DNA of 39,348 bases from Candidatus Saccharimonadota bacterium (GTDB lineage: Bacteria > Patescibacteriota > Saccharimonadia > Saccharimonadales > Saccharimonadaceae): the NCBI GenBank assembly GCA_017432225.1, contig JAFRJN010000002.1, forward strand, positions 1-39,348, given 5' to 3'. The translations under genes were made by a program, and so were the position numbers. Below the pieces are notes generated by a model that worked only from the letters and a program-made list of their open reading frames with translations, did no database searches and was not told where the DNA came from. Positions within the stretch are counted from its first letter, which is position 1; every line of letters begins with the position of its first letter. Shown piece after piece: positions 21,499 to 39,348 of the stretch.

Positions 21499-22440
21499 TT
21501 ATTTAGTTTCACTATGGAATTTTTCGTGCACTTCTTTGAGATGCGCGTCAGTGACGTGCGTATAAATTTGTGTAGTCGAAATATCCGCATGCCCGAGCAT
21601 GGACTGCACACTGCGAATGTCCGCCCCGTTCATTAGCAGATCCGTCGCAAACGAATGTCTGAGTGTATGCGGAGAAACATGTTTAGTAATCCCGGCCAGC
21701 CTAGCATATTTTTCTACAATCCTCTCTACGCTTCGCGCCGTGATCCGACGGTAATTCCCCGACTGATCTACCGCCTGCAAATTCCGCGAATTATTAAGAA
21801 ATAGCGCCGGCAGAGAATCCGTCCTTGCATCGAGATAATCCGCGACTCTATCTGCGCATGCTTCGGAAATAAAAATCGGCCGGTCCTTTGACCCTTTCCC
21901 CCGTACCATAAACTCACGTTTCTCGAGATTAATCGAATCCCGATTTAGCCCTACTAGTTCTGACACCCGGAGTCCCCCAGAATATAACAGCTCAATAATC
22001 GCCCTATCCCTGAGTCCCGATTCCGTGGTGAGGTCAATCTGCTCCAGCATATCTTCCACTTCGTCAAAGTGCAGGAACGTCACTTGTTTCCGTACCACAT
22101 GTGGCAATTCAATCAGGGAAGGATCAAGCGACTTGATTTCACGTTTGGCCAGATATTTGAAAAACCCACGTAGCGCAATTAAGTGTAGAGCCTGCGTGAT
22201 TACTTTCAAATCTTCTTTGCCATTTTCTGATCCATACCGATTTAGCTTCAGCCGGTACTGACGCAGCACCTCGCGGTTAATGTCAGAAGCCTTCACGTCG
22301 TCTTTGTTTAGAATTTCCATGCTCACGATTTCGAGAAACCGCTCGAGATATAGCCGGTAGTTTTCGATGGTCTTTTTGCTCCGCCCACTTTCCACTTCCA
22401 AATGTTCCAAAAAATCTTCAATCAAATCCGAGATATACAT
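21499..22440 (-). CDS. XerC/XerD-type tyrosine recombinase
   Basis: A 313-residue tyrosine recombinase. The N-terminal SAM-like domain begins YISDLIEDFLEHLEVESGRSKKTIENYRLYLERF. The catalytic set is visible: Arg in LLYSGGLRVSELVGL, Lys in GKGSKDRPI, HTLRHSFATDLL (His and Arg), LGHADISTTQIYTHV (His and the Tyr nucleophile). Length and sequence fit chromosome dimer resolution by Xer proteins, and a single Xer is plausible in a small genome. An integrase of a lost element is the alternative, given the ORF6N remnant just upstream. The start codon is set by TATAAT exactly 6 bases upstream. Confidence 0.9.
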   Translation of the reverse strand: MYISDLIEDFLEHLEVESGRSKKTIENYRLYLERFLEIVSMEILNKDDVKASDINREVLRQYRLKLNRYGSENGKEDLKVITQALHLIALRGFFKYLAKREIKSLDPSLIELPHVVRKQVTFLHFDEVEDMLEQIDLTTESGLRDRAIIELLYSGGLRVSELVGLNRDSINLEKREFMVRGKGSKDRPIFISEACADRVADYLDARTDSLPALFLNNSRNLQAVDQSGNYRRITARSVERIVEKYARLAGITKHVSPHTLRHSFATDLLMNGADIRSVQSMLGHADISTTQIYTHVTDAHLKEVHEKFHSETK

Positions 22441-22627: not shown

Positions 22628-22633
22628 TATAAT
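22628..22633 (+). promoter_or_regulatory. Promoter of the FISUMP leader, copy A
   Basis: GTGTGTTATAAT gives an extended -10 at 22628-22633, with no convincing -35. The start of transcription near 22640 would place the first helix of the structured leader within about 8 bases of the 5' end. Confidence 0.65.
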
Positions 22634-22646
22634 AAAAGTATACAAA

Positions 22647-22803
22647 TTTCTAACACCAAATGCACATTATAAAGAACAATATTTTGAACATATAAAACGG
22701 CACCAGTAGGTACTGATCGTGTTCAAAATCTTGTGTTTTGGGTGCGTTTGGTGTTAGAAAGCCTACGGGTGCCGTTTTGTATCCGCAAAATGCTCCGAAG
22801 GAT
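22647..22803 (+). ncRNA. Structured leader RNA, copy A (upstream of FISUMP protein)
   Basis: P1: 22647-22665 pairs with 22742-22760 (19 bp, one G-U). P2: 22681-22691 pairs with 22719-22729 (11 bp). P3: 22694-22710 in the apical loop pairs with 22762-22778, just after P1 (16 bp, one A-G mismatch). Conserved boxes shared with copy B are GCACATTAT (22662), GCACC-R-GTAGGTACTGA (22700), GAAAGCCTACGGGTGC (22757) and CTCCGA(A)GGA (22793). P1, P2 and the outer part of P3 differ in sequence from copy B but stay paired. The ribosome binding site AAGGAG follows at 22813. I do not recognise a known riboswitch or ribozyme. Confidence 0.75.
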
Positions 22804-22823
22804 TAAAAAAATAAGGAGTAAAT

Positions 22824-24209
22824 ATGCTACAGGTTGTACATAACATCAAAAAACACAAGTCTTTTAATTTTGCTTTAGTCATTATGTGGCTAATGCCGCT
22901 AGCGGTCATCTCGGCTATTTCTGCTCCTCCCGCCCATGCCGACAATCTAGACTACTCCATCAACGTCAATACTTCTCTCAATGTTGCAGTGTCGTCTGAA
23001 ACGGTTTCTCTCACGCTTAATCCTAGCACCAATCCATTTGATAGTACAAATGTAAATGTATCAGTAGGAACAAATAATCCATGGGGATATAAATTATATC
23101 TCAAGGCTAATAGTACAGATCTAACTAACTCTACTTATAGTACTCCTGCCTATATTAATACACTAAGTGATACTGCTACTGGCACTACTGAAGACTTTCC
23201 TGTCAATAAATGGGGCTATAGAGTAAGCGCACTATCTAGTGGCAATACCGCAGATAGCAGTGTCACTGATACTACTGGCACCTATTTCTATCCATTTGTG
23301 TCGGACACTTTGATTGGTTCTGCCACTACTTCGGTTAATAATAGTATTTCTACCCTGACTTTTGCCTCCAAGGTAGACTATGAAAGGCCAGCTGGTACTT
23401 ATACACTAGACTTTAGCTTTAGGACAGTGCCTACGGTGACTACGCTTGATATGCAAAATCTAGATCCGACTGTCTGCACTTCTGCCCCAACCCTCGTCAC
23501 TGATAGTAGGGATGGGCAGACGTATGCGATTGCTAGACTAGCGGATGGGAAGTGTTGGATGCTACAGAATCTGAAGCTAGGGAAATTGAGCGATAGTATC
23601 GCCCTAAGCCCTGCCAATTCAAATGTAAGCGATAGTGGGTTTATATTAACAAATAAACGTGACGTATCTACCAGGCCAGTAATGCCAAAAGAATCGGTAG
23701 TAGTAGATGGTGAAACGGTAGCGGACCAATATAATGAATCTGCATACGCATGCACTGATGGCTACGGTTGTTATTATAACTGGTATACAGCTACGGCTGG
23801 TTCTGGCACGAGTTGGGTCACATCCGGTAATGCAGCATACAGTATTTGCCCAACCGGATGGCGTTTGCCGACGAGCGGATCTAATGGCGAGTATCGTGAG
23901 CTAGCTATAGGATACGGCTATCTAATAGACTCTGGCACCGCAGTGTCTGCCAAAATGACCATAGCTAATCCTGATACAAACACAGAAAATATTAATGGGC
24001 AATATCTTCCTGGGTTCCTGTTCAGCGGCCATTACAACGCAGCGAGTAGCTACGCTGTGGGGACGAACGGTGATTATTGGTCTAGTACGACATATTCGGC
24101 GCAATACCCATTTTATTTTAATATTAGCAATAGCGGGGCTTATCCATCAGAAAGATATATTGGTAAATACGCTGGGCTTCCAATTCGTTGTCTCCTCCAA
24201 GAATCCTAA
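22824..24209 (+). CDS. FISUMP-domain secreted surface protein
   Basis: A 461-residue protein. A signal peptide spans residues 1-40 (IMWLMPLAVISAISAPPAHA before DNLDY). Residues about 42-205 are a Ser/Thr-rich beta domain (SLNVAVSSETVSLTLNPSTN). From 210 the FISUMP domain runs: MQNLDPTVC, VTDSRDGQTYAIARLADGKCWMLQNLK, GYGCYYNWYTA, ICPTGWRLPTSG, NGDYWSSTTYS and a final IRCLLQES. This C-type-lectin-like fold is used in surface recognition. No C-terminal anchor is seen, so attachment to the cell is unclear. AAGGAGTAAAT precedes the ATG, and the structured leader RNA precedes that. A bidirectional terminator follows. The C-terminus is paralogous to the fragment at 2-358. Confidence 0.9.
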   Translation: MLQVVHNIKKHKSFNFALVIMWLMPLAVISAISAPPAHADNLDYSINVNTSLNVAVSSETVSLTLNPSTNPFDSTNVNVSVGTNNPWGYKLYLKANSTDLTNSTYSTPAYINTLSDTATGTTEDFPVNKWGYRVSALSSGNTADSSVTDTTGTYFYPFVSDTLIGSATTSVNNSISTLTFASKVDYERPAGTYTLDFSFRTVPTVTTLDMQNLDPTVCTSAPTLVTDSRDGQTYAIARLADGKCWMLQNLKLGKLSDSIALSPANSNVSDSGFILTNKRDVSTRPVMPKESVVVDGETVADQYNESAYACTDGYGCYYNWYTATAGSGTSWVTSGNAAYSICPTGWRLPTSGSNGEYRELAIGYGYLIDSGTAVSAKMTIANPDTNTENINGQYLPGFLFSGHYNAASSYAVGTNGDYWSSTTYSAQYPFYFNISNSGAYPSERYIGKYAGLPIRCLLQES

Positions 24210-38996: not shown

Positions 38997-39025
38997 TTGC
39001 AAAAGTAAAAATCGTGGTGTATAAT
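38997..39025 (+). promoter_or_regulatory. Promoter of leader RNA copy B
   Basis: TTGCAA 38997-39002, a 17-base spacer and TATAAT 39020-39025. Transcription should begin near 39032, a few bases before the first helix of the leader. Confidence 0.75.
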
Positions 39026-39038
39026 AAAGTTATAAAAA

Positions 39039-39207
39039 TTTCCATACTAGGCACATTATTATTAATGCAAGCAAGCTAATGCTTGATTGAAAGTATAAAC
39101 CAGCACCGGTAGGTACTGACTGCTTTCAATCAAGTTTGCTTGTGAGAATGTATGCCTAGTATGGAAAGCCTACGGGTGCTGGTTTGTGTTTAGGGCCACT
39201 CCGAGGA
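39039..39207 (+). ncRNA. Structured leader RNA, copy B
   Basis: P1: 39039-39053 pairs perfectly with 39153-39167 (15 bp), extended by CATT/AATG after a 2-base bulge. P2: 39082-39093 pairs with 39123-39134 (12 bp), with a further GCAAGC/GCTTGT extension. P3: AAACCAGCACC and GTAGG (39097-39112) in the apical loop pair with CCTAC and GGTGCTGGTTT (39169-39184). Boxes shared with copy A are GCACATTAT (39051), GCACC-R-GTAGGTACTGA (39103), GAAAGCCTACGGGTGC (39164) and CTCCGAGGA (39199). A GAGAGGT ribosome binding site follows. P1 and P2 share almost no sequence with copy A but pair as well. Confidence 0.75.
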
Positions 39208-39234: not shown

Positions 39235-39348
39235 ATGCCCAAGGTCATACAATTCATCAAATCTAAATTAGAACTACACCGTGGTAAGAAGAGTATTTCT
39301 TCAAACCCTTATTCATATAGAAGTAATCTCAAAAGAAAGGAGAAAAGA
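39235..39348 (+). CDS. Start of a probable FISUMP-family surface protein (truncated by window)
   Basis: Thirty-eight codons are visible, beginning MPKVIQFIKSKLELHRG and running off the window without a stop. The first residues resemble the start of the FISUMP protein at 22824 (MLQVVHNIKKHKS): Val, Ile-Lys and basic residues are similarly placed. No hydrophobic signal-peptide core is reached within the visible part, so its nature is inferred mainly from the shared leader RNA. GAGAGGTCACA precedes the ATG. Confidence 0.55.
   Translation, partial: MPKVIQFIKSKLELHRGKKSISSNPYSYRSNLKRKEKR

Follow-up and report, generated by a model that had tools for sequence, protein, structure and literature searches.

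A pseudoknotted leader RNA, possibly a switch, upstream of surface-protein genes in Saccharibacteria and a few other Patescibacteria lineages

What kind of element precedes the surface-protein gene at this locus, and does it act on that gene as an RNA? The window, that is, the whole stretch of 39,348 nucleotides analysed here, comes from a Candidatus Saccharimonadota genome, and a sequence-only reading of it had proposed a structured leader RNA upstream of a FISUMP-type surface protein. Almost nothing is known of how Patescibacteria regulate the surface that faces their hosts; in a 2024 perspective, the mechanisms governing their differentiation were described as completely unknown, and riboswitches were named as promising tools for these bacteria (PMC11665869). 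A leader class native to these bacteria, with no Rfam counterpart and placed before surface-protein genes, would offer a direct handle on surface control. It might respond to a host or starvation signal, and parts of the leader could serve as expression tools.

Reading of the sequence located the three pairings common to the two window leaders at the proposed positions: P1, P2 and P3 are all formed in copy A (22647-22779) and in copy B (39039-39186), with all elements of both copies on the plus strand. In copy A, a TATAAT -10 box (22628-22633) precedes P1, and a TA(T/C)AAT box immediately 5' of P1 was seen across copies. P1 joins 22647-22665 to 22742-22760; its pairing had been described correctly, its length had not, the helix being longer, with 19 bp. 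P2 joins 22681-22691 to 22719-22729, and P3a (22694-22710), within the P2 loop, pairs with P3b (22762-22778), a pairing supported by covariation. Directly 3' of P3a lies an unpaired TACTGA (22711-22716), which is kept in the alignments of A, B and a third copy, C, found on a different contig of the source genome. The corresponding elements of copy B are the -10 box TATAAT (39020-39025), P1 (39039-39053 with 39153-39167), P2 (39082-39093 with 39123-39134) and P3 (P3a 39097-39113 with P3b 39169-39185). The strand order is P1-5', P2-5', P3a, P2-3', P1-3', P3b, so that P3 crosses P1 as well as P2 and forms a pseudoknot. The two P3 covariations reported between A and B (G-C to A-U and A-U to C-G) were indeed present.

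Pseudoknot-free folding gave stability z values of -7.5 for copy A and -6.2 for copy B, with none of 200 shuffles equally stable. These folds recovered P1 and P2 and put P3b in a hairpin with a downstream strand, P4', located at 22786-22801 in copy A, where a class-wide pairing test also supports it, and at 39193-39206 (GGGCCACTCCGAGG) in copy B, where the fold assigns it. In copy A taken alone the pairing of linker and P3b is weak (z only -0.7). The motif CTCCGA had been described as conserved and as unpaired or junction sequence; the conservation held, and the motif belongs to P4', the second partner of P3b.

The gene behind copy A (22824-24209, plus strand; Shine-Dalgarno AAGGAG at 22813-22818) encodes a surface protein of 461 amino acids with a FISUMP domain (Pfam PF09603, E 1.7e-12; TIGR02145, E 3e-18). 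These matches, together with the fold and the covariation, upheld the proposal of a structured leader upstream of FISUMP-type surface proteins. Behind copy B, the start of a gene (39235-39348, plus strand) leaves the window, and its N-terminus resembles that of other family members. The region before the FISUMP domain in the 22824-24209 protein and in the protein at L116 resembles the CPR Pam pilin model, below cut-off. One scan found no viral relatives of the FISUMP protein. A gene for a XerC/D-like tyrosine recombinase (21499-22440, minus strand) adjoins copy A.

Comparison with Rfam 15 agreed with the suggestion that the leader was uncatalogued, as no family matched. The whole window held just two tRNAs at or above the gathering threshold, 20 further loci gave no match at that threshold, and permissive scans of copy A, L298 and L326 returned sub-threshold hits only. 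No T-box or ribosomal-protein leader was matched at gathering score in the window or the 20 further loci. No description of the leader was found in the literature, which is weak evidence, only open-access sources having been covered.

The distribution of the leader was determined with patterns and covariance models. An exact P3 pattern run across the family matched only the source genome, plus one site read as a coincidence, and models were therefore used instead. A first model, built on P3 of A, B and C, retrieved clear homologues in the genus; a second, built from 19 of these, matched 75 of 174 genomes of the genus. The source genome was found to carry at least 10 sense copies, and the impression of only two copies was thus mistaken. 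In a congener (G181, ~0.8 Mb), the RNA occupies at least 39 distinct places, a lower bound from scoring 150 of 287 candidates, and P1 and P2 were present in the 32 copies examined. A contig pattern scan yielded at least 119 stretches, nearly all from Candidatus Saccharibacteria, with named sources that were mostly ruminant guts, and no viral contig held a copy by either pattern. Among the matches listed, six rabbit-gut contigs labelled Oscillospiraceae, Dysosmobacter or Clostridia bear true copies (L173, L194, L197, L212, L220 and L223); whether these are misbinned or reflect real transfer is unresolved.

Outside the genus, a second and mostly single-copy form (type 2) was found, with P1, P2 and P3 in the same order as in type 1. 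A third model detected this form in 33 of 147 genera of the order and in another family of the same class (L321). Two weak but structurally sound matches in other families of the phylum (L326 and L327; E 1e-5 and 3e-4) each contain P1 and P3. The two types are connected because two source-genome copies match the third model (E 1e-5 and 2e-4). A lack of further homologues with compensatory changes, which would have refuted the proposal, was thereby excluded, the models having found many in the genus and the order. The leader is a previously undescribed folded RNA class of Saccharibacteria and a few other Patescibacteria lineages. Some candidates were judged false, namely L122, L324 and L330, which are simple hairpins, and L191, L175, L286, L287 and L296. 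Ends of G228, G275, G271 and other contigs often lie ~119-130 nt from the RNA; this points to assembly breaks in a repeated leader-plus-gene family, and copy numbers are probably undercounted.

Many type-1 copies precede genes for secreted proteins that carry FISUMP or Listeria-Bacteroides repeat domains, and some of the scanned ones matched no domain. Type-2 copies precede genes for OmpA-like, DUF4352 and NHL-repeat proteins, a host-cell-surface lipoprotein with PASTA and other membrane proteins, and one lies upstream of a DNA methylase gene. In 38 of 41 type-2 copies, a same-strand gene with a Shine-Dalgarno sequence, mostly for an envelope protein, starts within 100 nt, and in G181 nearly all copies examined are followed by a paralogous surface-protein gene. 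A folded RNA between a -10 box and the start codon of mostly envelope-protein genes satisfies the structural requirement for a cis-regulatory leader RNA, an effect on the gene being inferred in the absence of expression data.

Selection on the fold was examined in copies gathered by P3 pattern and promoter, which gave 159 pattern hits. The hits in which P1 was missing from its usual position proved to be other copies read in antisense or to have P1 close by, and P1 was present in all 146 sense copies kept for testing. Since P3 is self-complementary, P3-only models also match the antisense strand, and the strands were told apart by P1 and the promoter. MAFFT was unable to align the P1 and P2 columns across copies; column counts were therefore replaced by alignment-free swap tests, in which each strand was paired with its own or a foreign partner. 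Over the 159 hits, own versus foreign pairing was -24.3 vs -9.9 kcal/mol for P1, -19.1 vs -7.5 for P2 and -25.4 vs -22.9 for P3; this run still contained antisense hits, which weakened the own values. Within the single genome G181 (32 copies), the respective values were -22.8 vs -9.9 and -19.7 vs -7.4 for P1 and P2, and -26.2 vs -26.1 for P3. In type 2 they were -27.4 vs -13.4 for P1 and -20.8 vs -15.0 for P3. The strands of P1 and P2 are thus private to each copy, and those of P3 are interchangeable inside one genome. Of the P3 base pairs, 7 of 17 covary in type 1 and 5 of 15 do so in type 2, in alignments that came from P3-based searches and are biased towards P3.

The interior of P1 also revealed which strand is under selection. 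Among 116 distinct helices, with mismatches counted only where flanked by Watson-Crick pairs, wobbles numbered 112 (U.G 106, G.U 6) vs 7 A.C; the unfiltered count of 165 vs 157 is inflated by helix ends. Because of this excess, the plus-strand RNA is what selection keeps. The wobbles are one-sided: in 106 cases U in the 5' strand faces G in the 3' strand, and in 6 the arrangement is reversed. The commonest is a single wobble ~10-12 nt from P3b, about one helical turn from the foot of P1, and the cause of the U.G excess is unexplained.

The strand bias bears on the idea that the element works as DNA, as a recombination site, cassette boundary or bidirectional terminator shaping the surface-protein gene family. 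Such a role would suit the self-complementary P3, the recombinase flanking copy A and a sharp boundary in G181, where 14 copies of one linker type share 96% identity from P3b onward and 51% upstream. That boundary can, however, be explained by gene conversion that reached P3b but halted before P1, lest P1 break, although this is an inference; the -10 box at the foot of P1 and the mostly single type-2 copies also speak against such a role, as does the bias itself, which marks the plus-strand RNA, and a DNA-level element is considered very unlikely. Integron attC sites likewise occur in many copies and retain structure while their sequence varies, but here selection falls on the RNA strand, each copy has a promoter in front of it, and it is the outer helix that varies. 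Judged from sequence, only the G.U strand bias argues against an attC reading, the R box (GTTRRRY) not having been compared. The near-equal own and foreign P3 energies in G181 would also allow leaders of paralogues to pair mutually in trans, coordinating which surface protein is made. Pairing in cis is faster, however, and the same fold is kept in single-copy genomes, which leaves this cross-talk very improbable.

If the RNA acts in cis, its output may lie in the pairings of P3b, for which three partners compete: P3a; P4', which lies between P3b and the start codon; and one arm of a terminator-shaped hairpin, T, which most copies have but A and B lack. In 57 non-redundant type-1 leaders, pairing of P3b with the linker had a mean z of -3.5 against shuffled linkers and reached p<=0.05 in 75%; in type 2 the mean z was -1.8, with 53% at p<=0.05. 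P4' also varies along with P3, as in L285 and L119. Hairpin T is built from P3b as the 3' arm and the end of P1 plus ACC as the 5' arm, followed by a U-tract of about five U. In type 2 it is nearly always formed before the U-tract (mean z -2.5; mean U-tract 5.3) and shows the compensatory variants GACACC/GGTGTC, GACAACC/GGTTGTC and GACGACC/GGTCGTC; in type 1, 131 of 146 copies have the arm, and the 15 that lack it include A, B and C. What is expected of an intrinsic transcription attenuator, a GC-rich hairpin that directly precedes a U-tract and rivals an upstream helix, is present in type 2 and in those 131 type-1 copies but not in A, B or C, attenuation itself being a possibility with no transcription data behind it. 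The linker paired less strongly with the start region (mean z -1.3 and 32% at p<=0.05 for type 1, -0.4 and 15% for type 2), and in type 1 this pairing partly covaries. As judged from complementarity, the leader has what is required of a riboswitch in structure, a conserved fold with mutually exclusive expression-platform pairings, P3b being common to P3a, P4' and T; exclusion in the cell has not been shown.

These data are probably best read as a new class of cis-regulatory RNA with riboswitch-like strand exchange in the 5' leader of surface-protein mRNAs; regulation and switching are inferred, without transcription, probing or ligand data. P1, near the predicted transcript start, carries P2, and the P3a strand in the P2 loop pairs with P3b immediately after P1. 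The helices of this pseudoknot, the complementarity of P3b to several strands, and the promoter and gene context are supported by the tests above, and the use of the P3b pairings as a switch is inferred. The intact P1-P2-P3 fold may block the pairings of P3b with T and P4'; a cue, whether metabolite, protein or RNA, would alter the fold, release P3b to T or P4' and so change the output, presumably transcriptional in T-bearing copies and translational in T-less copies such as A and B. P1-P2-P3 is taken as the sensing part because the upstream fold is constant while the output part varies. Riboswitches likewise combine a constant upstream fold with output parts that differ. Lying past the U-tract, P4' is unable to act on termination at T, and any role it has would come later. 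The ON state is undecided: P3 might protect expression by blocking T, or might itself be a terminator, since it abuts the U-tract. The window copies without T, the weak pairing of linker and start region, and the copy before a DNA methylase gene count against this switch.

A close likeness is to transcription-terminating pseudoknot riboswitches such as fluoride (crcB) and ZTP (pfl), 5' leaders in which a hairpin forms a pseudoknot with the segment immediately 3', a terminator hairpin with a U-tract shares sequence with the pseudoknot region, and one upstream fold persists across differing expression platforms. Unlike these, the leader has no Rfam sequence or model match, its P1 and P2 are free in sequence, the pseudoknot strand is repeated farther downstream as P4', and no ligand is known. 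T-box and ribosomal-protein leader attenuators are also cis leaders with competing helices near a terminator, but the genes here encode surface proteins rather than tRNA synthetases or ribosomal proteins. The leader looks as if it works like a pseudoknot attenuator or a riboswitch; membership of the latter would need a ligand, and there are no binding data.

The T-less copies leave room for a switch that acts on translation only, in which P4' would pair with P3b, freeing the start region, or with the Shine-Dalgarno sequence and start codon (off), T and the U-tract being decoration or a separate terminator. In copy A, TGCTCC of P4' (22791-22796) could also pair with GGAGTA over the Shine-Dalgarno sequence, and the source genome holds covarying pairs of this kind (TGCTCC/GGAGTA, GACCACTCC/GGAGAGGTC and GGCTCC/GGAGCC), in line with the type-1 signal at the start region (mean z -1.27, 32% at p<=0.05). 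The signal is nevertheless slight in type 2, where T is nearly universal, so that translation alone is judged unlikely, if still a real possibility. A promoter, a folded RNA of ~140 nt and a terminator-shaped hairpin would equally make up a complete unit, such as a free-standing 6S-like small RNA with an incidental gene behind it. The close same-strand genes of type 2, the paralogous genes in G181 and the conservation of P4' past the U-tract make this improbable.

Under the favoured cis-regulatory reading, a further and more tentative suggestion, for which the case falls somewhat short of even, is that an old Patescibacteria riboswitch-like class, which usually stands as one copy ahead of an envelope-protein gene, has multiplied in a single genus of gut Saccharibacteria and there reaches tens of copies in genomes of 0.6-0.8 Mb. 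One cue acting through the common P3 core would then set the whole surface repertoire, P1 and P2 remaining private to each copy. The at least 39 copies in ~0.8 Mb would represent an unusually large RNA-controlled gene set for a genome of this size.

Some leaders are separated from their genes by additional sequence. A second repeated hairpin element (GGACGGGT..GGCAGGAC-CGTCC type), possibly MITE-like, lies in either orientation between P4' and the Shine-Dalgarno sequence in L015, L164 and L146; in L013 it apparently lies within the N-terminal coding region. In L140 and L152 of G181, a different insert of ~150 nt with inverted ends (GCATAATTCAT..ATGAATTATGC) lies between leader and gene.
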